Assembly (NCBI GenBank): GCA_023213315.1
Contig: JAKCPI010027609.1
Location: 88,901 to 152,900, forward strand
Reading direction: 5' to 3'
DNA length: 64,000 bases
From: Euborellia annulipes
Lineage: Eukaryota > Arthropoda > Insecta > Dermaptera > Anisolabididae
Shown: positions 3,937 to 60,470 of the stretch, piece by piece
Numbering within the stretch: the first letter of the stretch is position 1
Layout: every line of letters starts with the position of its first letter
Translations under genes and position numbers: made by a program
The notes under the pieces: model-generated
Database searches by the model: none
What the model was told of the DNA's origin: nothing
What the model saw: the letters and a program-made list of their open reading frames with translations, nothing else

Positions 3937-4067
3937 TCTTAAATAATGCCTTTTAAGTGCCTATTTTTACAATAAATGCCTTTTTAAGTGACTATTTTAA
4001 TAATTTTTAGTGCTTAGTTGCCTGCCTATTTTAAAGATTTTTAGTGCCTATAAATCCGAGCCCTAAT

Positions 4068-5125
4068 TATAACATATTAAAAAAGTAAAAATTAGCCTTT
4101 AATCTATATAAGTGCCTTAATGTCCGAACAACTTTAAAAAGATTAAATAAAATTTATTTTTCCCAACTGATGATACTTTAATCAGAAGTGGTAACTTCTC
4201 TACTGCTTAGGCTTAACTAAGAAAATTTTTTAGAGTAGTTAAGACTTAAAAAAAAATTGTGTAAATTATCTGACCCTTTAAAGAATTTATTTTGTAAAAT
4301 AGGCTTGAGAGGGCTTCTTCCTTATCCCCTCCCTCGTCCTTATCAATTTAGGGATTATTGATTTATTATAAAAAATTTTAATAAAAAAAAATAAAAAAAA
4401 AAACTTTATAAGATACTTAGTCAAGGCCTAGTAATAATTAACTCTGAATTAATATTAATAGTAGGTGGTTAGTATTTTATAACGATAAAAAAATCAACTT
4501 TTCGCAAGAACTTCTATCTCTCTGCCTAGTAAAAGTCATTCAATAAATATTCTTATATTTAATATAATATTCAATAAAAATGTTAAAACTTCTGAGTTTT
4601 ATTTAAATTTATAATTCAAGAGATCTCTTGATAATTACTCTATAAAAAATTAACTAAAATTTTTTTTAATGAGTAAATTTATATAATACATCGAGTTTTA
4701 AAAGTAAGTTTTTTTTTTTTAAACTTTTTTATGAATACTATAATTATTTTTTTATGGTGTTTTTTTTTTCTAAGCGATACATCTGATTTGACGTAAATAG
4801 TTTAAGAAAAAAAAGTAAAATTATTTGTTAAAGTTTTGATTACTTATAAGAGTTGATGCCTTGGAGCATTTAGCAACCGGAAATTTTCTCAAAAAATTTC
4901 CTCTAGTCTGTCCTTAGCAATCATTCAAGAATCTTTTCCTTTTTTTTTTCCTTCACTCTGCTCCCTGTTTCGACTTTAAAGCACAAAAACCATGTTTTTT
5001 ACTTGTAATAACAAATCAACTGATCTTTAATAATATAAATTTTTTTTTTTTCAATTTTTTGATTTTAGAATTTAAAAAAAACAAACCAATTTTAATTAAT
5101 GTCATTAAAGATAAGTAGGAGTAGC
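4068..5125. other. AT-rich spacer, no gene seen
   Basis: Mostly A/T-rich sequence with homopolymer runs. At 4084-4137 is a right-end piece of the TTAA-flanked family (ATGTCCGAACAACTTTAA; compare 9438-9454). No open reading frame of interest. Confidence 0.5.
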
Positions 5126-17043: not shown

Positions 17044-20000
17044 TGAATGAATGAATTATATTTATTTTGCTCTGAGGCGATTTGCCTCCTAGAGCATTAA
17101 TATTACATAGTATTTACAATTTTTATATGTAGACTGTATTTACAATATAACAAGAAAATAAAAAAAAAAGAAAAATTGCATTTTACTAGGAAAAACATTC
17201 TCCCTCCCACTACAGAAATTGCTCCTGTTCTTTTAGTAAAAAAGAATAAAATTTACTTTTGAACGATTCTAAAGAATTTAAAGACCTGATATCGCTAGGA
17301 ATCCTGTTCCATACCCTAATTGATGTCACTAGAAAAGAGGTGTCGAATGCGGCCGTCCGATGAACCGGCATTCGCAAATCCAAAAGATTTGCCCTTGGCA
17401 CAGCCCTGCTACACTCACCCCTGAAAACGTAACTTTCATAAAGATACTTGGGCATTTTGTTTTTCAGGATGCCTAACACACAACACCCCATCAAATATTC
17501 TCGACGTCGTTTTAACTTGAGCCATCCAAGTCTACTATAATAAGGTGTTATGTGCTCGTCAAGAGGCAAATCAAAGACAAATCTAACAAAAGCATTAAGC
17601 ACCCTCTCAAGAGTCAAACCACGCTCACCAGTCATACCGCTGTAAACCAAACAACAGTAGTCGAAGTGGGGCAGGATGAGAGAATTTACCAATAATTTTC
17701 TTATTGATGGGGGGAGGCAGTCTTTGTTTCTCTTAAATTGGAAAAGACTGGAATAAACCTTTCTAGATACTTCACGGACATGCTCTCCCCAACTTAAGGT
17801 CCTATCGAGAGTGACGCCTAAATTCTTGACAGAAATAGAATAATCTATCTGTTTTCCGTCAATAATAATAGGTGGAATGTTAGGTAGCTTGTGAACATAA
17901 GCGCCACTTCCGAAAACCATTGCCTTAGTCTTTTCGATGTTTAATTTTAACTTCTTGCCTCGCACCCAATCGACTATTCGACATACATCCTGATTTAAGA
18001 GATAGATTGCCTGGTCTAGGTTATCAAATTTGGAAACGATATAGATCTGGAGGTCGTCGGCAAACAAATGGTAACGGGAATTTATCAAGTGCTGTCCGAC
18101 ATCATTTATAAAGATAGAAAATAAGAGGGGACCCAACACCGACCCTTGAGGCACCCCCGAAATAACCGGCAAGAGTCCAGAACCGCGACCATCCCAATCG
18201 ACCACCCTCTGACTTCTCCCAGACAAATACGATGCAAACCATGCGGTTGCCGATCTAGATAGATTGAGCCTATGGAGTGACCTGATCAAGATAGAGTGAT
18301 CGACCATATCGAAAGCTTTGCTAAGGTCAAAGAGCACCATAACCGTCAGTTGCTTCCGATCAATGGCGATCTTTATATCGTCAGTTACCTTAAGAAGAGC
18401 AGATTGTGTGCTGTGATATTGCCTATATCCAGACTGGTACGGGTCGAAAGCATCCAGATCCTCCAAATATTGTGTCAAATAATGATGGACAAGTCTCTCA
18501 AGTATCTTCGATAAGGTGCAGAGCAGGGAGATAGGTCTATAATCCTTACATTCAGAGGGATTTGAGATCTTGGGCAATGGTCGAACAATTGATGTTTTCC
18601 AGGAGCGGGGGAAGACTGACTCTTGCAGACACCTATCAAAGATATGAACCAACACCGGTAAGATGCAAGGAGCGGATAGTTTAATTAATTTCAAAGGTAA
18701 CTCGTCAGTTCCTTGTGATTCCGATCCAGGCATGTTTATAAATTTAAGGACGAGGTGTGGTTCAACGCTAGGAAAGAAAAATCGTTCAGAGTCGAAAGTG
18801 TACCCCTTGAAAAGTACATCACTGTCTATATCCGGAATACCACTACCAGGGTTTCCTCCGGACACAAAAAATTCATTTAGAACGTCAGGATCAATTTTCA
18901 ATGGTTGACTTTCCTTTGATTTTGTCAGCCCCAATTTTGAGACCTCTCGCCAGAGGTATGAGATGTTCTTGCTCTTATTATCCTTAAAGAACCTTTCGAA
19001 AAATTGCATTTTGCCCTTCCTAAGAGAGCTCGTCACTTTATTTCTAGCCTGCCTGAACTGAGAGTAAAGACCAGGATCACCGGATCTTAACGCCCATCTG
19101 TGTAAGCGATCACGCTCCTTCATAAGATTCCTAATATCCTCTGTAATCCAAGGGGAAGGTGCACGTTTTCTTTGGACTTTACAAAGAGGGGCGTGTTTGT
19201 TAAAAGCATCTAAGAGGATCCCATTAAGATAGGCAATCTTATCATCTATATTATTATGATTGAAAATGGGCGAGAAGTCCACGGCTTCCAATTCATTTAA
19301 AAAATCTACATGGTTAAAATTTCTAAAATCACGAAAAGAAATACGAGAAGGTGTAAAGCGAGTTATAGACTTATTTATGTTTAAAAAGATCAAATCATGA
19401 GCAGACAGGAAAGAAGCAGGATGTTGTCCCTTAGAGATAATCTTATCATATAAAGGTTCGTTGACAACCATTAAGTCAATCCACGAATGGGAGTTTTGAG
19501 TAAAATGTGTTGAACCCAAAGGGACCACCCTGAGACCCAGACTATAGAATAAGTTACTTAGGTAGATTTTATCCGGCGAGTCCGTATTGAAATCTGTGTT
19601 AAAATCTCCAGTAATTAGTACCTCATTGTACAAAGGTAAGTATTTGTAAAGTGAGTTTTCGAGGTCTGAGTAAAAACCCACTTTTGGAGGCCTGTATACC
19701 ACAACCAATAACAATTGAGTGTCTTCGTTAGTTACCTCGAGAATTAAAAATTCGACCAGGGATGATGTATTTGAATGTGAGGATGTAAGTTCGATACACT
19801 TGAAATTCTTCATAGCATAAACCGCCACCCCTCCTCCCATTCTAGATAATCGGTCAGTTCTGAACAAATTGTAATCTTCTAGGCAGACATTTTTGGAAGA
19901 AATGTGAGGTTTTAACCAAGATTCACTGATACATATTAGATGATATTTATTCAGCGAAAAGTAATGCCTAAATTCATCTAGATGAGCGCAAAGTGACTGA

Positions 20001-20096
20001 CAATTTACATGACATATTTTTAATATCTCAGACATAGGAATAAAATTGGAGTAGATGAAGTAAAATATCCAAGTTGCAAGACCCCAGGCGATATAT
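17038..20096 (-). mobile_element. CR1/Jockey-type LINE A, copy 1 (ORF2 complete, no ORF1)
   Basis: On the minus strand it starts at about 20096 within AATATATCGCCTGGGG, has an intact ORF2 (20035-17210) and a ~170-base 3' UTR ending in (ATTC)n at 17038-17055. The short tandem tail instead of poly(A) fits CR1/L2-like LINEs. It is inserted in the (GA)n tract of an R copy. Its 5' end lies directly against the 3' tail of the chimeric element at 20092-23460. Confidence 0.85.
17210..20035 (-). CDS. LINE ORF2: AP endonuclease plus reverse transcriptase
   Basis: 941 codons, uninterrupted, starting MSEILKICHVNCQSLCAH. Residues 1-230 are an exonuclease-endonuclease-phosphatase (APE) domain: HVNCQSL (Asn), ISESWL (catalytic Glu), VVVYRPP, LITGDFNTDF (Asp/Asn), and SAHDLIFL near the end (His-Asp). 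It would nick target DNA. The reverse transcriptase spans about residues 480-760: YRPISLLCTLSKILERL, FDLSKAFDMVDH (motif A), SGVPQGSVLGPLLFSIFIND (B), HLFADDLQIY (C, catalytic FADD), NLGVTLDRTLSWGEH. The C-terminal region has no clear zinc knuckle. All catalytic residues I would look for are present, so the ORF may still be active, but ORF1 is absent from this copy. CR1/Jockey supergroup; exact clade open. Confidence 0.93.
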   Translation of the reverse strand: MSEILKICHVNCQSLCAHLDEFRHYFSLNKYHLICISESWLKPHISSKNVCLEDYNLFRTDRLSRMGGGVAVYAMKNFKCIELTSSHSNTSSLVEFLILEVTNEDTQLLLVVVYRPPKVGFYSDLENSLYKYLPLYNEVLITGDFNTDFNTDSPDKIYLSNLFYSLGLRVVPLGSTHFTQNSHSWIDLMVVNEPLYDKIISKGQHPASFLSAHDLIFLNINKSITRFTPSRISFRDFRNFNHVDFLNELEAVDFSPIFNHNNIDDKIAYLNGILLDAFNKHAPLCKVQRKRAPSPWITEDIRNLMKERDRLHRWALRSGDPGLYSQFRQARNKVTSSLRKGKMQFFERFFKDNKSKNISYLWREVSKLGLTKSKESQPLKIDPDVLNEFFVSGGNPGSGIPDIDSDVLFKGYTFDSERFFFPSVEPHLVLKFINMPGSESQGTDELPLKLIKLSAPCILPVLVHIFDRCLQESVFPRSWKTSIVRPLPKISNPSECKDYRPISLLCTLSKILERLVHHYLTQYLEDLDAFDPYQSGYRQYHSTQSALLKVTDDIKIAIDRKQLTVMVLFDLSKAFDMVDHSILIRSLHRLNLSRSATAWFASYLSGRSQRVVDWDGRGSGLLPVISGVPQGSVLGPLLFSIFINDVGQHLINSRYHLFADDLQIYIVSKFDNLDQAIYLLNQDVCRIVDWVRGKKLKLNIEKTKAMVFGSGAYVHKLPNIPPIIIDGKQIDYSISVKNLGVTLDRTLSWGEHVREVSRKVYSSLFQFKRNKDCLPPSIRKLLVNSLILPHFDYCCLVYSGMTGERGLTLERVLNAFVRFVFDLPLDEHITPYYSRLGWLKLKRRREYLMGCCVLGILKNKMPKYLYESYVFRGECSRAVPRANLLDLRMPVHRTAAFDTSFLVTSIRVWNRIPSDIRSLNSLESFKSKFYSFLLKEQEQFL

Positions 20097-21058: not shown

Positions 21059-22641
21059 CCAGATCCTCCAAATATTGTGTCAAATAATGATGGACAAGTC
21101 TCTCAAGTATCTTCGATAAGGTGCAGAGCAGGGAGATAGGTCTATAATCCTTACATTCAGAGGGATTTGAGATCTTGGGCAATGGTCGAACAATTGATGT
21201 TTTCCAGGAGCGGGGGGAAGACTGACTCTTGCAGACACCTATCAAAGATATGAACCAACACCGGTAAGATGCAAGGAGCGGATAGTTTAATTAATTTCAA
21301 AGGTAACTCGTCAGTTCCTTGTGATTCCGATCCAGGCATGTTTATAAATTTAAGGACGAGGTGTGGTTCAACGCTAGGAAAGAAAAATCGTTCAGAGTCG
21401 AAAGTGTACCCCTTGAAAAGTACATCACTGTCTATATCCGGAATACCACTACCAGGGTTTCCTCCGGACACAAAAAATTCATTTAGAACGTCAGGATCAA
21501 TTTTCAATGGTTGACTTTCCTTTGATTTTGTCAGCCCCAATTTTGAGACCTCTCGCCAGAGGTATGAGATGTTCTTGCTCTTATTATCCTTAAAGAACCT
21601 TTCGAAAAATTGCATTTTGCCCTTCCTAAGAGAGCTCGTCACTTTATTTCTAGCCTGCCTGAACTGAGAGTAAAGACCAGGATCACCGGATCTTAACGCC
21701 CATCTGTGTAAGCGATCACGCTCCTTCATAAGATTCCTAATATCCTCTGTAATCCAAGGGGAAGGTGCACGTTTTCTTTGGACTTTACAAAGAGGGGCGT
21801 GTTTGTTAAAAGCATCTAAGAGGATCCCATTAAGATAGGCAATCTTATCATCTATATTATTATGATTGAAAATGGGCGAGAAGTCCACGGCTTCCAATTC
21901 ATTTAAAAAATCTACATGGTTAAAATTTCTAAAATCACGAAAAGAAATACGAGAAGGTGTAAAGCGAGTTATAGACTTATTTATGTTTAAAAAGATCAAA
22001 TCATGAGCAGACAGGAAAGAAGCAGGATGTTGTCCCTTAGAGATAATCTTATCATATAAAGGTTCGTTGACAACCATTAAGTCAATCCACGAATGGGAGT
22101 TTTGAGTAAAATGTGTTGAACCCAAAGGGACCACCCTGAGACCCAGACTATAGAATAAGTTACTTAGGTAGATTTTATCCGGCGAGTCCGTATTGAAATC
22201 TGTGTTAAAATCTCCAGTAATTAGTACCTCATTGTACAAAGGTAAGTATTTGTAAAGTGAGTTTTCGAGGTCTGAGTAAAAACCCACTTTTGGAGGCCTG
22301 TATACCACAACCAATAACAATTGAGTGTCTTCGTTAGTTACCTCGAGAATTAAAAATTCGACCAGGGATGATGTATTTGAATGTGAGGATGTAAGTTCGA
22401 TACACTTGAAATTCTTCATAGCATAAACCGCCACCCCTCCTCCCATTCTAGATAATCGGTCAGTTCTGAACAAATTGTAATCTTCTAGGCAGACATTTTT
22501 GGAAGAAATGTGAGGTTTTAACCAAGATTCACTGATACATATTAGATGATATTTATTCAGCGAAAAGTAATGCCTAAATTCATCTAGATGAGCGCAAAGT
22601 GACTGACAATTTACATGACATATTTTTAATATCTCAGACAT
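21059..22641 (-). pseudogene. LINE A ORF2, 5' half (endonuclease and start of RT), frameshifted
   Basis: Starts at the same MSEILKICHVNCQSL as the intact copy and is identical to it over the APE domain (residues 1-230) and linker. At 21211-21216 there are six G where the intact copy (18605-18609) has five, which shifts the frame after ESVFP (about residue 477) and ends the protein at residue 494. The correct frame continues (WKTSIVRPLPKISNPSECKD, YRPISLL) to the switch point. RT motifs A to C are missing. The single-base change in a G run may be real or a sequencing error. Confidence 0.85.
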
Positions 22642-23195
22642 AGGAATAAAATTGGAGTAGATGAAGTAAAATATCCAAGTTGCAAGACCCCAGGCGATAT
22701 ATTAGGTATATGTAAAGAAATAAACTCCATAGATGAAAAGAGAATAGGCAGATAAGTCTTGTAATAACAGGAGCAATCAGTGTAATAAACGAGGGGCGAA
22801 CGTTGGTACATTGAGCAAACTCCAGCTTGGCTTCCAGCGCTTTAATAGTAGCCGCCTGAGAATCAAACTTCTCATGCAGGAACTCCAATGACTTGACAAC
22901 CTCGACGCTATTTGTCTGCAAGGCCGTGAGAGAGGACGAGATGTCAAATGGTACCGCTTTAGCCCCTTCGCTTACCATTTCCTGTCTTTCAGGTCCAGAA
23001 GACGAACCGGACAGCCCAGCGCGGGCATCCCCTTTGATACATGAAGGACATTTGAATTTGTCCACTCTTTGGTCTCCCGGTGCAAGCGACACATTTGAAA
23101 TGGTACTCATGGGTACAGTGTTTACAGCTGACACACTCCCCCCTTGAAACACTACGAGAACATTTGTTGCAAAGCACCATTTCGGTTTTATTCAA
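22634..23195 (-). pseudogene. LINE A ORF1 remnant: PHD-like zinc finger and coiled coil
   Basis: From ATG at 23195: MVLCNKCSRSVSRGECVSC then KHCTHEYHFKC, giving Cys-x2-Cys...Cys-x2-Cys-x4-His-x2-Cys. In a second minus frame comes KFKCPSCIKGD, the last Cys pair, so one base was gained or lost near 23090. Together they form a PHD/RING-like finger as found in ORF1 of CR1-type LINEs. Further on, NSVEVVKSLEFLHEKFDSQA and TIKALEAKLEF look like a coiled coil. After that the frame runs into junk before ORF2 at 22641, so the middle and C-terminus of ORF1 are deleted. ORF1 proteins bind RNA; this one is inactive. Confidence 0.7.
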
Positions 23196-36195: not shown

Positions 36196-37017
36196 AAAAA
36201 AAAATTATATTCCACCGAAAAAAATTTAAAAAAAAAAAAAATTCTGAACGAAATAGTCGGCGGCGTAAGAGATGTAGATTTATAATTTACAATGGTTAAA
36301 TAAAAATAGGACGAATTTCTTTCATCTAATCCAATAATCCTCTTTGTTAATCAATTTTTCAATTCCTACCGAATTTGAAATATCTTTATAAAGTAAGCAA
36401 GAGCAAGTGCTAAAAAAACCTCTCTGAAATATAATAATTCAACAACACGATCTTATTTATTTTCAATTTTATTTCTTATTTGTTTCAATACTGAACATTT
36501 TTTTTTTTTCTTTCTTTTTTTTCATTTCTTTTCAATTCTATCAATCTCTTCAAATGGCTTACCATTGATCGTTTAAAATGACGTGACAATTTCGTTTTAA
36601 CCTTAAATACACTTTTTATTTTTTTTTAATTCACTTTTGGTCCATTTCAATTATTTTTCAAATTAAATCTTTTGTATTTACTGTGTAGTAGAATAGCTGG
36701 ATTTCGTTAATTATTTTTTTCATTAAATTACTAATTATTAAATATATTAAAACAGAGTTTCTCTTGAATATATAAATAGCAGAATATATAATTATTTTAA
36801 ACAGTTTGTTGATATGACAGAATCCAATATAGAAAAAATGTTCGGGAATTCCCCACTTAGACCATCACGATGAGCCAAGAATTATTAAGCATATGTAGAG
36901 GTCTCTTCTAACCAATCAGAAAGCTTGTTTCGGACCAGTGGCGTAACTAAATTTTTTAGGCCCACAATAAGAGGATAAAGGAGCAAGCAGCCAAGTAGTT
37001 AGTCTCCACGAAATGAA

Positions 37018-37085
37018 ACTCTCTATTGAGGAAACCGTTTCGGTTTTAATGAAATATAACCATCATCAGTCCATTTATCGAGAGT
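37018..37085 (-). ncRNA. hammerhead ribozyme, type I (left arm)
   Basis: Mirror image of 37154-37221: same CTGATGA core, stem II GGTT/AACC, GAA, ACGGT stem III and stem I with internal loop, read on the minus strand. Confidence 0.65.
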
Positions 37086-37153
37086 GTGAGCTCAAATGAC
37101 AAAGCTCACACTCTCGATAAATGGATGGTGTGAGCTCAAATGACACAGCTCAC

Positions 37154-37221
37154 ACTCTCGATAAATGGACTGATGATGGTTATATTTCATTAAAACCGAA
37201 ACGGTTTCCTCAATAGAGAGT
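37154..37221 (+). ncRNA. hammerhead ribozyme, type I (right arm)
   Basis: Stem I has an outer helix ACTCTC/GAGAGT (37154-37159, 37216-37221), an internal loop, and an inner helix GGA/TCC (37167-37169, 37207-37209). CTGATGA is at 37170-37176, then the extra T. Stem II is GGTT/AACC (37178-37181, 37194-37197) with a 12-base loop. GAA is at 37198-37200, stem III ACGGT (37201-37205), cleavage triplet GTT, site after 37206. A stem I internal loop facing loop II is the usual layout of natural hammerheads. The ACGGT stem III cannot close as a monomer hairpin, so a dimer form is more plausible. Confidence 0.7.
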
Positions 37222-37262
37222 TTCATTCCGTGGAGACTAACTACCTGGCTGCTTGCTCCTTT

Positions 37263-37596
37263 ATCCTCTTATTGTCATATATATTTTATTTTCAAAATAT
37301 ATCGAAATAAAAATTATCTCAATGTTTTAATCAGAAAAATAAAGTTAATTTTGCTTTTGAATGAAATGCGTAGGACTATTCTAACTGTAATTAGACAATT
37401 TTTAAAATGAAAAAATTCAGAATATTCATGTTTTAACATTGAACCGTTCGAGGAAAAATTTAAACAGGTTAAAAATTCTTCTATTCAGAGAAAAAGAGAG
37501 AAAGAAAGAAAAAGAATCAAACAAAAACAAGATATGGAGAACGAGAGAGAGAGAGAGAGAGAAGGGCCCTCCATATTTAAGGGTTGAAAAAACATA
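37263..37596. other. spacer with GA microsatellite
   Basis: AT-rich with (GA)n at 37540-37561; the open frames here follow the purine bias and are not taken as genes. Confidence 0.4.
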
Positions 37597-40254: not shown

Positions 40255-40530
40255 TTTTTTAAGTGGAACTTTTATTTAATGACCTCAAATTTTTTCGCTC
40301 TTCTATCAGCAGATCGCGTTACAAGCTGTGACGTCAAAGGCCGTAACGCTACAAGCCATCACTTCACAAGCCGTGACGACAAAAATTGAAAAGAAAGTTT
40401 AAATTTATTATATATGACGAATTATAAAAAAATAATTGTGAGATTTAATTATTCAATTTTTAAATTGATGAAATATAATTTTTTAAATAATTTAAAAGGT
40501 ATTCGTTGATAGTTTGGGCTGGAAGTTGAA
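40255..40530 (+). repeat. S repeat family with TGACGTCA site
   Basis: Same as 24930-25175 in opposite orientation; TGACGTCA at about 40330. It continues at 41131-41165 after the foldback, so the foldback is inserted in it. Confidence 0.65.
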
Positions 40531-40582
40531 ATTAATAAGTAGGAGAAGGAAACCAGCGCCTCTTTTTCCACCATACACACTA

Positions 40583-40644
40583 TTTATTTGCAAATATTTC
40601 GGGTTGCAGTACGCCACCCATCATCAGTGCAGCAACTATATAAA
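40583..40644 (-). ncRNA. hammerhead ribozyme, type I (left arm)
   Basis: Exact mirror of 41022-41083 on the minus strand. Confidence 0.7.
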
Positions 40645-41021
40645 GGTAACAATATACAATGTAAAATATAAAATAAAATAAAATAAAATTATTATACAGA
40701 AAATATTCAAAAATTGGCTTACATAGTTTTGGTGGTGGATGTCGTCTATATTTTTGCCTCTGTATAAATGCTTGCCATTCTCATAGCGATGTTCTTAAAA
40801 TAGGCAAATTACCAGCAATGAATGAGACGACTTTTTATTTTTATTCATTGCTGGTAATTTGCCTATTTTAAGAACATCGCTATGAGAATGGCAAGCATTT
40901 ATACAGAGGCAAAAATATAGACGACATCCACCACCAAAACTATGTAAGCCAATTTTTGAATATTTTCTGTATAATAATTTTATTTTATTTTATTTTATAT
41001 TTTACATTGTATATTGTTACC

Positions 41022-41083
41022 TTTATATAGTTGCTGCACTGATGATGGGTGGCGTACTGCAACCCGAAATATTTGCAAATAAA
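41022..41083 (+). ncRNA. hammerhead ribozyme, type I (right arm)
   Basis: Stem I: outer TTTAT/ATAAA (41022-41026, 41079-41083), internal loop, inner TGCA/TGCA (41035-41038, 41074-41077). Core CTGATGA at 41039-41045 plus the extra T. Stem II GGGT/ACCC (41047-41050, 41062-41065) with an 11-base loop. GAA 41066-41068, stem III ATAT (41069-41072), triplet ATT, cleavage expected after T41073. Stem III of two self-complementary pairs favours activity as a dimer. Confidence 0.72.
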
Positions 41084-41276
41084 TAGTGTGTATGGTGGAA
41101 AAAGAGGCGCTGGTTTCCTTCTCCTACTTATTAATAATTTAAAAGGATTCAAATCTTCAATTAGTAAATAAATATTGTTCCCAGTTTTTAACATGCGTCT
41201 ATTGATTTTCCATTATCATTCCCATTTTCCAATTATTAAGTTAAGATTAAAATCGCGATTTTAATACCCTTAATTC

Positions 41277-41345
41277 AGCCATTCTCAAAGTGTGTTCCGC
41301 GGAACCCTAGGGGTGATGATTTTATTTCATTTAAGTCTATTTAGA
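41277..41345 (+). mobile_element. hAT-type end fragment
   Basis: CAGCCATTCTCAAAGTGTGT followed by TCCGCGGAACCCTAGGGGT is the common hAT-type terminal phrase seen in many animal genomes; no right end found. Similar weak ends are at 46950-47020. Confidence 0.5.
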
Positions 41346-50553: not shown

Positions 50554-52624
50554 AGCTGGGCATACACGGAGAGGTAGAACTGTCGGGTTGGACCGGGGCG
50601 GTCCAATCTGTCGGGTCGATCCGCCACGGTTAAAACTTTCGTTATCAATTTGGCTTAAAAAAGTGGAGAGTTTGATCTGTCGGGTTGGACCGGGGCGGAC
50701 CAATCTGTCGGGTCGACCGGCACGGTTAAAACCGTCATTATCAATTTCGTTTAAAAAAACGGAGAGTTTGATCTGTCGGGTTGGACCGGGGCGGACCAGT
50801 CTGCCGGGCCGGCTAAAACCGGCACGGTTAAAACCGCCACGGTTAAAACCGTCATCACTCACAAACGTAAAGGAAAAACCCGCAGATAAACCCGTATAGT
50901 TGGCCCGCCACGGGCCAAACCGTACGTGTATGGGCAAAATCTTTGGACCGCGGCAGTTTTAACCGCTGATTTGACCAAATCTCTAGGGCTTTCGTCTTGC
51001 CGAAAGTTTTGCCTGCCGACTAGACAGATCAAGTCAAGAAGCCATTGGAATTTCCAAGAAAAATGGAAATAGAAAATTATTTAAAAAAAAAGTAATTAAT
51101 CCTTTCTTCTCCTTTAAATAAAATCTTTAATTATCTGATTCTGAAGCTGCCAAAATAGGATTTAAGGTTCCCTGAGTCCATTTAAGTAGTTTTTGGAATG
51201 ATGTCTGTGTGTATGTCTGTGGTATTTTGCACACATAAACTAGATGTAAAGGTCAAGAACTGAAAAGCTTTTGGTAAAGATCGGACCATTAGGGGGCGCT
51301 CTAGAAAGAGGGCCAATATTTTTTTCTTACATAACCTATAATTTTTTTTGTATATTCAGAAACTAGACTTTCTCCCGAGTAAAATGATAGGTCTATATAA
51401 TATTTGTATCCTAATTTGCCATGACCTTAAATGATATTTAAAAAAAATAATAATAATAAATTTGTTTTTGTGAATGGTGATTAACTAAAATATTTTAGAA
51501 CATATTAATAGCTTAATTAATTAATAGGGGGAGGGATAACTTATTTTCTTTAAATGGTCAAAAAAATAAATTTGTAAAAAAAATTTTGAAGTAACATGTC
51601 CTCCCCTACCCCCTCCAAAAATCGCGACTTAAAGAGATGGTCCGGGGCGGTCAAAACTGTCGCTTGTCCACTAACGAAAAGATCAGACCGTGAGTTCGGA
51701 CCGCAGTCCAATCTGTTAGATTGATGCGTGGCGGTCAAAACTGTCGCTTGCTCACTAACGAAAAGATCAGTCCGTGAGTTTGGACCGCAGTCCAATCTGT
51801 TAGATTGATGCGTGGCGGTCAAAACTGGCGCGTGCTCGCCCACTAACGAAAAGATCGGATCGTGAGTTTGGACCGCAGTCCAATCTGTTAGATTGATGCG
51901 TGGCGGTCAAAACTGGCGCGTGCTCCCCCACTAACGAAAAGATCAGTCCGTGAGTTTGGACCGCAGTCCAATCTGTTAGATTGATGCGTGGCGGTCAAAA
52001 CTGGCGCGTGCTCGCCCACTAACGAAAAGATCGGATCGTGAGTTTGGACCGCAGTCCAATCTGTTAGATTGATGCGTGGCGGTCAAAACTGGCGCGTGCT
52101 CGCCCACTAACGTAAAGATCGGATCGTGAGTTTGGACCGCAGTCCAATCTGTTAGATTGATGCGTGGCGGTCAAAACTGGCGCGTGCTCGCCCACTAACG
52201 AAAAGATCAGTCCGTGAGTTTGGACCGCAGTCCAATCTGTTAGATTGATGCGTGGCGGTCAAAACTGGCGCGTGCTCGCCCACTAACGAAAAGATCGGAT
52301 CGTGAGTTTGGACCGCAGTCCAATCTGTTAGATTGATGCGTGGCGGTCAAAACTGGCGCGTGCTCGCCCACTAACGAAAAGATCAGTCCGTGAGTTTGGA
52401 CCGCAGTCCAATCTGTTAGATTGATGCGTGGCGGTCAAAACTGGCGCGTGCTCGCCCACTAACGAAAAGATCGGATCGTGAGTTTGGACCGCAGTCCAAT
52501 CTGTTAGATTGATGCGTGGCGGTCAAAACTGGCGCGTGCTCGCCCACTAACGTAAAGATAAATCCGTGCGTTTGGACCGGCACGGTCAAAACCGACGGTT
52601 CTACCTCTCCGTGTATGCCCAGCT
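50554..52624. mobile_element. TIR DNA transposon, copy 2, with expanded minisatellite
   Basis: Same ends and order as copy 1, separated from it by AAT only and followed by AAT (52625-52627). Its right subterminal region has about ten units of an 84-88-bp repeat where copy 1 has one, and its left subterminal region has one more ~110-bp unit. Confidence 0.85.
51671..52546. repeat. 88-bp minisatellite with higher-order pattern
   Basis: Units start CTAACGAAAAGATC at 51671 (84 bp), then 51755, 51843, 51931, 52019, 52107, 52195, 52283, 52371 and 52459, each 88 bp. Two variants, A (ATCAGTCCGTG) and B (ATCGGATCGTG), follow as A B A B B A B A B after the first unit, i.e. mostly a 176-bp dimer. Confidence 0.92.
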
Positions 52625-55258: not shown

Positions 55259-55570
55259 GTGGGCTTGGCTTCGGCTAATCTCGCCTCCCTTCGCCGTCGC
55301 TCGGAAACGCGTTTTTGTTACGTTACATTTTCTCCCATTTCACTTCATAGGTCTGTCATTAAAGAAACCAAAGGTACAGCCCGTACAGTCAAGGACAATA
55401 TTAAGTCCCACCCTGAGGCCTACTTTACTGACTTTAGAGCCCTGCGCGTAGGCAACCATTTACGGAGGTCTGTCTTTTGTGTTGCCCTAAAATACAGCTC
55501 CTCTTGTGTCAATGATTTTTGCGCATTTCTTATCAAATATTACTTTAAAATTTTTGTCAGAAATTTTTGA
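55259..55570 (+). other. unclassified open frame beside the copia element
   Basis: 103 codons open, of which TVKDNIKSHPEAYFTDFRAL has a protein-like composition. The last ~70 bases overlap copia sequence on the other strand, so the 3' end is chance. Nothing recognised; the copia element is truncated against this sequence at about 55497. Confidence 0.25.
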
Positions 55571-56231
55571 TACCGACATAAGATTGTTTTTAAGATTGGG
55601 TATATGCAGAGCATTTTCAATTGTTATGTGATTGTCTTTTTGACCATTATTGACAAAAATATCTAGATAGCCTCTTCCAATTACATTTGTGCTAGAGGCA
55701 TCAGCTAAATTTATCTCATTAGTGATTTTAAAATTTTTAAAGGAGGAACGTGCATTACTCATGTGTGAGGTGCATCCACTATCAAGACACCATTTGTTAT
55801 CTTGATCGTCAGATTCATTTAAAACAGATAAAATTGCATTATAAGGATGGGAACTTTCATTTTTATTTTTATTTGAGACCCCGCAATATTTTCCTTTGTG
55901 GCCGTATAAATTGCATTTAATACATTTCCCATGAAATTTATATTTTTTAGAAAAACTTTGTGATTTATTAATAGTAGATTTAGCAGCCACTGCATTAATA
56001 TCATTAGAGGCTTTGGATTTCCTAGAATCACTCTCTTCGATTATTTTAATTTTTAAATTTTCAGCTTTCGGCAGCTCATCTCTTGATTCTATAGCACATC
56101 TAAAATTGTCATATTCGTCGGGGAGACTATATAATAATATTATTGACAATAGGTCGTTATTAATATCTATATTAAGGTCTTTGAGTTTATCTACTGCATC
56201 GAAGAAATTGTTTAAAAATGATCTGACGTCG
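55497..56231 (-). pseudogene. copia gag C-terminus and protease
   Basis: Continues the gag frame after the Transib insertion: LPDEYDNFRCAIESRDELPK is the C-terminal gag (UBN2-like) block. CIKCNLYGHKGKYC is the CCHC zinc knuckle (Cys-x2-Cys-x4-His-x4-Cys) that binds RNA. WCLDSGCTSHMS is the copia protease active site (D-S-G), followed by ALHIPNLKNNLMSVSKIS, the pre-integrase block. It breaks off soon after. Leaving out the Transib element plus one target copy (1349 bp) puts this part in the same frame as the start at 57927. I infer that the ORF was intact when Transib inserted. Confidence 0.88.
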
Positions 56232-57575
56232 CACAGTGGGCTGAGATGGGAAAAAAGCGGCCAAAATTCGAAAAAATGAACTTCAAAATATAAAAACGAC
56301 GTTTTGCACACCAATAATAGACTATATGTGGACTTCAGGACAATAATTCATTTTTTTTTTTACCCAACCCAAACCCGAGTTATAGAGCGCCAAAGTGGGC
56401 AAGAGAGCTTACTAACTTTTCTTTGCGTTTTAAGTCGTCATTTATTAATATTGATCCAAGTTTAATGAATTTTTTTTTGAATCTTAGATAAATTAATCTT
56501 CTATATGGGAATATTTTTGTTTTACTTGTATTTCAGTTATTTATTTTTAAATAAATTTTTTTTGTAAATAAAAAAAAAGCAATATAAATTTTTTTCAATT
56601 TCAAAAAAGTATATGGGCATCCTCTTGCCTTCTAACAAACTCAATAGATTCTGAAACTAGAATACATGTAGAACAATTGCATCAGAACTTTCTGCCCGAA
56701 TTTGCCCGCCGATTTTTTATTAATTTTTTTATAATTAAATCGGCAGAAAAACAAATGATTTCCGTCAAACCATATGAACTTCCCTCTGCTTTACAGATAA
56801 TATTGAAACGAGACAAAGGGCTGTCGGACAAAATAAAACCAGGCTATTATTAGAATGACCATAAAATTTTACGGTGGCCTCTTATGGGGCCTCAGATTTT
56901 GAAATATTTTGAAAAAATAATCTATTAAAAGGGAATATCCACTATTTTAAAATTTCATTTTTTCTTGTTCATATTCATCTTTAAGTATAATGACAGAGAA
57001 TAGAAGCCGACTCCAAGGGGCCCAAGGGGCTCAAGCCCCCTCCCCCCTGCCCCAATGTTGAGGGAAGAGAAAATAAGTCATCTTTGTAATCAGCAATCCA
57101 TTAAAATGTATATAAAGACGTATTGCTTATATAAAAAAAAATATATATTTCGACCCTTTGAGTAAGGGGTAGTTTACCCCATCTATATATTTTGTAAAAA
57201 TAGATGACATTTTTGTAACGAGTGACCTTTAAAATGTATATAAAACATATTGCTTGTAATTATCAAAAAAAAAAAATTTTGCTCCTTCAGTAAGGGGTAG
57301 TTCACCTCATATATGTTTGTTGTAAAAATAAATGTCATTTTTGTAAAACGCATATTTTTTTTTGATTTTTTGACATATGTTTTTTTTTATATTTCACACA
57401 TCATAATTTTTTTTTCAACTTTGTCAAGGGGTTATTTCAACCCCTTTCGGTAAAATATGAAAATATTGAAGGGTATAGAAGAACATATGATTATGTATGG
57501 ATAGTTTTAATTTTGTAAAAATCCGCCCAAAAAAAGATAATTTTGGCCGCTTTTTTTCGATTTCAGCCCACTGTG
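56232..57575. mobile_element. Transib-type non-autonomous element
   Basis: Ends CACAGTGGGCTGAGATGG and (reverse complement) CACAGTGGGCTGAAATCG continue matching through AAAAAAGCGGCCAAAATT, about 40 bp. CACAGTG is the Transib terminal heptamer, the same as the RAG recombination signal heptamer. The flanking 5-bp duplication CGTCG (56227-56231, 57576-57580) fits the GC-rich Transib target pattern CGNCG. No transposase core recognised in its 1344 bp. Confidence 0.9.
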
Positions 57576-57927
57576 CGTCGTCTCCTATATTCATTTTATT
57601 AAGAAGTAACTGTTTAAGCAATGTGGCCTTTCTAGCAGGCCCTTTTGGTTGATAAATAAAATGTAATTTTTTCCATACCTCATTTGAAGTGGAGCAGTCT
57701 TTTATTTGTTTCAGCTCAGACGGATTAATTGCTAAAATTAAATCTGGCCTTGCTTTAGCATCATACTTCATCCATTTTGCAGCAGTAACAGCATCGCTAG
57801 GCTTGACGTATTCTCCATTAACATAATCCCACAAATCGTTTTTAATTAAAATTGCTTGCATTTGGATTTTCCACTTATCAAAATTTTCCTTTCCTAAGGT
57901 TTCAATTTTTATAGGCACTGTAGACAT
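57576..57927 (-). pseudogene. copia gag N-terminus
   Basis: Starts MSTVPIKIETLGKENFDKWK at 57927; LGKENFDKWKIQMQAILIKN and LWDYVNGEY are the N-terminal copia gag block, followed by WMKYDAKARPDLILAINPSE and VWKKLHFIYQPKGPARKATL. It ends at MNIGDD, where the Transib target site lies. The open frame then runs into the Transib element to 57424, which is not copia sequence. Confidence 0.9.
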
Positions 57928-58055
57928 GATGCACTTTGCTTCTGAAGATCAAAAGAAAATTATTAAAATGGTTGACGATTTATTGATATATATATATATT
58001 TTCTTTTAGCACGACGAGGTTAAGATTCTGTTCAATCTTCTATACTTCTTTTATT

Positions 58056-60264: not shown

Positions 60265-60470
60265 TTAGATTAGCAAAGAGGTATGCTTGTTTTTTTCGCA
60301 ATGAGAAAAATAACTTTAAGAGTGTTTTCTTCAAATATTTCGAAGACATTTAATAGCACTTCACCGCTGATGAAGAAGTCCTATTAAATGCCATCGAAAT
60401 ATTTGAAGAAAACACTCTAAAGTTATTTTTCTCATTGCCAAAAAACAAGCATACCTCTTTGCTAATTTAT
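60265..60470. mobile_element. foldback element with degenerate hammerhead (4)
   Basis: Arms about 60271-60365 and 60372-60466, near-perfect (TTAGCAAAGAGGTATGCTTG ... GTGTTTTCTTCAAATATTTC). The arms carry TGATGAAG...CGAAATATTTGAAG. Core CTGATGA (60367-60373), GAA (60396-60398), ATAT stem III, ATT triplet and a CTTCA/TGAAG stem I are there, but stem II does not form on the plus strand. Confidence 0.6.

Follow-up and report, generated by a model that had tools for sequence, protein, structure and literature searches.

The foldback at positions 40500-41135 is very probably a 5'-truncated, non-autonomous insertion of a Penelope-like element (PLE), in which two pseudo-LTR (pLTR) pieces lie head to head with their 3' ends outward; this reading includes an origin by priming on both sides of the target. 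The same plan is found at many sibling loci of this genome, and 38 of 40 distinct two-armed insertions, belonging to three subfamilies, carry a short tail on exactly one arm. Together with the lengths of the arms, this suggests that the two arms are target-primed cDNAs, one per target strand, that begin at different start sites of reverse transcription and are then joined.

A truncated PLE insertion and its full-length relative

The window, which is the whole stretch of 64 kb that was analysed, contains two inverted arms of 293 nt each that are 100% complementary (40531-40823 and 40843-41135) and separated by a spacer of 19 nt. A preliminary description made from the sequence had given arms of about 295 bp in a foldback at 40535-41140. 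The foldback is real and the arm length was close, but those limits were wrong, as the insertion extends from 40500 to 41135 and reaches further to the left. Its parts are as follows.

40486-40499, no strand: left target-site duplication (TSD), AATAATTTAAAAGG, from comparison of the flanks with a swapped-flank control
40500-40530, minus strand: PLE tail of 31 nt, on the left arm only, from its match to the 3' tail of the full-length copy L020
40531-40823, sense strand minus: left arm, an inverted PLE pLTR; the BLAST match to L020 runs on to 40844
40594-40627, minus strand: hammerhead core of the left arm, from the sequence pattern and covariation of homologues, with predicted cleavage after 40593 (minus strand)
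40824-40842, no strand: centre of 19 nt, from comparison of the window sequence with L020
40843-41135, plus strand: right arm, a PLE pLTR in sense orientation that ends without a tail, from the alignment of the arms and the match to L020
41039-41072, plus strand: hammerhead core of the right arm, from the sequence pattern and covariation of homologues, with predicted cleavage after 41073
41133-41146, no strand: right TSD, AATAATTTAAAAGG, from comparison of the flanks

The length of the TSD is given as 11-14 bp because 3 bp are ambiguous and overlap the end of an arm. The centre consists of further 5' sequence of the left arm (AAAATAAAAAGTCGTCTC, minus strand) and one extra T, and abuts the start of the right arm. 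No ORF is present between the arms, in agreement with the non-autonomous status proposed earlier. A foldback or TIR DNA transposon was considered and rejected, since its terminal inverted repeats would be symmetrical and the tail here is one-sided.

The genome assembly (903 Mb in 25,949 contigs) was searched with the window arm, which gave at least 51 matches with scoring confined to the best 40 of 618 candidates, and 34 sibling loci (L009-L042) were fetched. One of these, L020, has direct pLTRs (1027-1319 and 3959-4251) enclosing an open frame of 852 codons. The frame (L020:1267-3822) matches the Pfam families RVT_1 (E 2e-12) and GIY-YIG (E 2e-5), and its position between pLTRs identifies L020 as a PLE. 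The left arm of the window with its tail and the right arm map to 2619-2963 and 2640-2932 of L020, respectively, which bears out the Penelope-like link in the preliminary description. The reverse transcriptase (RT) with C-terminal GIY-YIG that is typical of PLEs is thus found in the sibling L020, while the window copy has no such ORF. Two other PLE traits are seen in the window itself: a tail of 30-40 nt at one 3' end (40500-40530, left arm only) and a short TSD in an AT-rich target (AATAATTTAAAAGG). The pLTR takes in the first codons of the ORF, and the start of the protein matches window 40497-40583 on the minus strand. The pLTRs are direct in L020 and inverted in the window and in most of the 34 fetched loci. 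A genome search with the L020 protein yielded at least 53 scored matches among 4552 candidates; a search of solved structures with the L020 ORF gave no match.

Several other repeats were seen. Among the protein matches listed, long PLE coding stretches form head-to-head pairs, minus then plus, at two places (G000 C2040:18045-22769 and C373:66618-71075). In the window, near-identical LINE-type frames occupy 17210-20095 and 21157-22701 on the minus strand, with 300-nt blocks that are 100% identical; both have an endonuclease domain, and the former also has RVT_1. A tandem array of an 88-bp unit (10.7 copies) lies at 51646-52579. Copia-type gag fragments are found on the minus strand at 55487-57948. 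In the stretch 1-2001, direct repeats of 279 nt (1-279 and 1723-2001, 100% identical) flank a frame that encodes an SH3 domain of Tf2-1-like type, and perhaps represent the end of an LTR element.

The hammerhead motif

Each arm holds CTGATGATGGGTGGCGTACTGCAACCCGAAATATT, on opposite strands, with one occurrence per arm of the pattern CTGATGA...GAAATAT (40594-40627 minus, 41039-41072 plus). This pattern has three matches in the 64-kb window, compared with a mean of 0.04 in shuffled sequences; in the third of them, at 60367, stem II is not apparent. The right arm contains the following parts on the plus strand, all assigned by sequence.

41022-41026 and 41079-41083: outer part of stem I, TTTAT and ATAAA
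41035-41038 and 41074-41077: inner part of stem I, TGCA and TGCA
41047-41050 and 41062-41065: stem II, GGGT and ACCC
41066-41068: GAA
41069-41072: ATAT, followed by the predicted cleavage site after T41073

These stems and the cleavage site are where the preliminary description had placed them, and the conserved type I minimal core CUGANGA...GAA...NUH is complete in each arm, as it had also proposed. The letters of stem III, ATAT, are self-complementary and loopless, which fits the minimal form. A covariance-model search, which had been suggested as a check, was negative: the Rfam hammerhead models gave no match in the window that reached the gathering score, nor any at E<=10 in 40400-41300. 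At E<=10 they also matched none of four loci that carry other such motifs, in a search run without a positive control; the models thus seem blind to the minimal form. Folding of the 75-nt motif alone was no better than that of shuffles (z 0.24; -13.6 kcal/mol).

Evidence for the helices comes from comparison between families. The pattern CTGATGAN{8,30}GAAATATTTGC has 791 exact matches in the genome and its reversed control has 0. Stem II varies between subfamilies with compensating changes, GGGT/ACCC, GACT/AGTC and GATAT/ATATC being among the examples. In an alignment of 26 motifs of the genome, pairing is seen in 78.6% of the cells of stems I and II, compared with 59.9% in shuffles; 38 cells carry changes on both sides, compared with 15.0, and covariation scores 0.464, compared with 0.183. 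None of 500 shuffles reached any of these three values. When the partner is slid by 1-3 columns, pairing falls to 22-51%. Two of the five covariation measures were not above shuffles (181/500 and 104/500) in these 26 motifs. An earlier alignment had comprised 20 of the 26, with weaker ones omitted; the count was redone with all 26, and helices I and II are backed by covariation in both sets. The 26 include the motif at window 27196, which violates the NUH rule and is probably not a hammerhead. For distal stem I the gain over swapped partners is slight (7.42 for own partners, 6.86 swapped; 203 of 5000 permutations as high). Within the family, 49 distinct arms gave a mean minority frequency of 0.013 in the core, compared with an overall 0.032, but conservation is higher still in two bins that lie outside the ribozyme (0.006 and 0.005). 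Within-family conservation is therefore uninformative on the ribozyme, and between-family covariation was used instead.

It had been claimed that both strands could yield self-cleaving RNA. This is doubtful for transcripts of the window locus, since pairing of the arms would produce a duplex of 293 bp and bury the motif: a whole-element transcript of 661 nt is predicted to fold into a single extended duplex (-513 kcal/mol). The arms may also give rise to double-stranded RNA. In a cofold of two RNA copies (-32 kcal/mol), pairing in trans involved stems I and II and did not produce the palindromic dimer expected of stem III. The hammerhead belongs to the PLE 5' leader and was carried along with it; it probably serves the RNA of the full-length element, not the scar in the window. 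Minimal hammerheads of PLEs were reportedly described by Cervera and de la Pena in 2014. Published minimal PLE hammerheads have a type I core without a closed helix III (PMC6155905), as does the window motif, with no evident difference from that account; PLE hammerheads are also treated in PMC7229834.

Other observations on these motifs may be added. An ATGATG within the hammerhead opens a frame of 14 codons, from the ATG at 41042 to the TAG at 41084-41086, which stops just ahead of the point where the long RT frame has its first ATG (L020 1267 on) and is possibly an uORF. A second hammerhead-like foldback lies at window 36964-37275, with arms of 129 nt that are 98% complementary and a spacer of 54 nt. 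It has CTGATGATGG...AACCGAAACGGT pointing outward on both strands; its two arms appear to share one end point (CTCTTATTGT), and no TSD was seen. Opposed hammerhead-like pairs, minus on the left and plus on the right, also occur in L022 (3433/3484), L027 (4257/4434), L040 (3390/3464) and L010 (1074/1401), and in several of these motifs GAAACGT replaces GAAATAT.

Tails, target sites and arm lengths of sibling insertions

The 34 loci together with the window gave 23 distinct pairs, all of family A, in which both outer ends could be called. Those dropped were L014, a duplicate of L013; L009, L012b, L020 and L039, in which the outer ends were not callable; and the single-arm loci L019, L021, L030, L031, L034, L035, L036 and L038. 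Every one of the 23 pairs has exactly one tail, and the other arm stops about 31 nt earlier. A further set was drawn from the hammerhead pattern: among about 100 of its 791 matches, listed in contig order, there are at least 19 opposed pairs within 2 kb, and by reading of that listing all 19 have the minus motif on the left and the plus motif on the right. All 19 were checked; two had already been counted (C1294 is L026 and C1885 is L025), which left 17 new pairs. Exactly one tail is present in 15 of the 17 (10 of subfamily B, 3 of C and 2 of A), giving the total of 38 of 40. The remaining two are C2214 (L080), which has the tail in both arms and about 12 nt of common flank beyond it, and C947, which has the tail in neither arm and an interrupted right arm. 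One of the pairs scored as one-tailed, C554 of subfamily B, is a doubtful call: the arm without a tail stops short, and no convincing TSD could be identified. Subfamily B is likewise a PLE, since the arms of its copy C1166 enclose a frame with 54% identity to the L020 protein. No two insertions were found to have both flanks in common, and flank matches on one side only, where they occur between different insertions, do not exceed 89% identity.

Copies with a single arm, which the preliminary description had thought worth looking for, make up 8 of the 34 fetched loci (L009-L042), and some have a plausible TSD, e.g. L035 and L038. Two arms, and hence priming on two sides, are thus not obligatory for insertion.

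The flanks have at least 10 bp in common in 21 of the 23 two-armed insertions, compared with 20 of 506 swapped flank pairs; the other two lack a TSD of this length. The 14 nt adjoining the junctions have 8-9% G+C, compared with 23-26% at 20-40 nt away, and no obvious difference in target motif was seen between the side with the tail and the side without. The points at which the paired arms are truncated show no correlation (Spearman -0.17, p 0.45, n=23); the median distance between them is 255 nt, and the tailed arm is the longer in 12 of 23. In four of the 23 pairs, the window included, the two break points lie no more than 32 nt apart, where 1.9 such pairs are expected (P 0.13); the window arms break at most 21 nt apart. 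Arms of the same insertion differ at 1.12% of positions, while permuted partners differ at a mean of 2.54% (5000 permutations, minimum 1.85%). Uncorrelated break points and low mismatch within an insertion together indicate that the arms would be separate reverse transcripts of one source sequence. We found neither the count of one tail per insertion nor a test of independent truncation in the PLE literature surveyed, of which the coverage was incomplete, and both may already be known.

Formation of the second arm

The purified PLE of the anole cuts and extends both target strands in vitro (PMC11167929). Its reverse transcription has two internal start sites next to each other, and the stretch that separates them corresponds to the tail; the same work describes formation of the second PLE end as not yet validated, and reports cleavage by the hammerhead only with its protein present (PMC11167929). 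Taken with the sibling counts, two-strand cutting and two start sites make it the simplest account that both nicked strands prime, one per start site. The PLE protein, bound to its own RNA, would cut both strands of an AT-rich target with a stagger of about 11-14 bp, and each freed 3' end of the target would prime reverse transcription of the same RNA species. One of the two cDNAs would begin at the outer start site and so carry the 31-nt tail, while the other would begin at the inner site and lack it. Both would stop early, and their ends would be joined in the middle to give an inverted repeat with a TSD. We lean towards a stricter form of this proposal, in which two-sided insertion is obligatorily asymmetric: one RNP makes one cDNA per strand and uses each of the two start sites once, and the inverted repeats result directly from target-primed reverse transcription on both sides followed by end joining, without self-priming. 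As to the cause of the asymmetry, an asymmetric protein dimer on the stem-loop of the start site is our guess.

For rotifer PLEs, inverted repeats have been attributed to self-priming on an antisense template (PMC3846280), in which the first cDNA, or an antisense transcript, folds back and is copied to give the second arm. Identical arms around a 19-nt loop, as in the window, agree with this published interpretation, and break points at most 21 nt apart are also expected from hairpin priming. Copying of this kind would place the tail in both arms, however, yet nearly all of the 40 insertions are one-tailed. It should also give equal arms, and the large, uncorrelated differences in break point among the 23 family-A pairs would call for large loops primed by hardly any pairing or none. 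Self-priming therefore fits poorly as a general account, and we consider it improbable, although C2214, with tail and flank in both arms as copying of a fold-back predicts, resembles such a case.

The remaining explanations concern the nature of the hairpin itself. That it belongs to a distinct non-autonomous, ribozyme-bearing foldback family spreading as a unit was suggested by the fully complementary 293-bp arms with the motif on both strands, but is very hard to reconcile with its relatives. Of the 34 other arm-matched loci, 33 join the pLTR end to other PLE sequence or have a partner arm that breaks elsewhere, and the last, L019, shows a lone arm only. The window's pair of break points is not repeated in any other fetched copy (from the best 40 of 618 candidates scored), and the nearest relative of the arm among the scored matches, L009, is 95.6% identical but differently structured. 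The combination of a short ORF-less repeat with a type I hammerhead also recalls a retrozyme, a small hammerhead-bearing repeat copied through circular RNA. This too has very little to commend it, as the arm consists of the leader of a PLE ORF together with its first codons, the arms form inverted pairs instead of tandem repeats, and the hammerhead is minimal (ATAT, with stem III unclosed). Palindromic chimeras arising in library or assembly typically have perfect arms and a short loop, as the window has. We regard such an artefact as extremely unlikely, because neither a one-sided tail nor a TSD is expected from a chimera, and many sibling loci share the plan with unequal arms.

The preliminary description had taken the architecture to be undescribed. 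It is in fact published for an animal Penelope element: Pen2a of the rotifer Adineta vaga has, like the window, inverted head-to-head pLTRs with a 31-bp tail on one of them and a TSD, and its pLTR likewise extends into the first codons of the ORF (PMC3846280). The TSD of Pen2a is 8-10 bp, compared with 11-14 bp in the window, the window has no ORF between its arms, and the word hammerhead does not occur in the main text of the Pen2a paper (PMC3846280). Inverted pLTRs with short 3' extensions are also reported in PMC8969392. Poseidon PAc of Anolis carolinensis resembles the window family in its minimal hammerhead at the junction of pLTR and ORF, its AT-rich targets and its two RT start sites spanning the tail (PMC11167929). 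Its ORF starts at stem II, whereas in L020 the ATGs of the motif open the short upstream frame and the ATG of the long frame follows; its tail is found in a fraction of genomic copies (PMC11167929), whereas here a tail is present exactly once in 38 of 40 two-armed insertions. Animal retrozymes share with the window element a type I hammerhead and a non-autonomous nature, but are small tandem repeats with canonical hammerheads (PMC7229834), whereas the window holds an inverted PLE fragment.

PLE hammerheads, head-to-head inverted pLTRs and the one-sided tail are thus already published, and the window element itself is ordinary. The reading of such hairpins as new ribozyme-bearing foldback families is hereby corrected. 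The siblings are informative on how PLEs form their second end: the rule of one tail per insertion, with independent arm lengths, makes a concrete prediction for this step, and offers a modest lead towards its mechanism.
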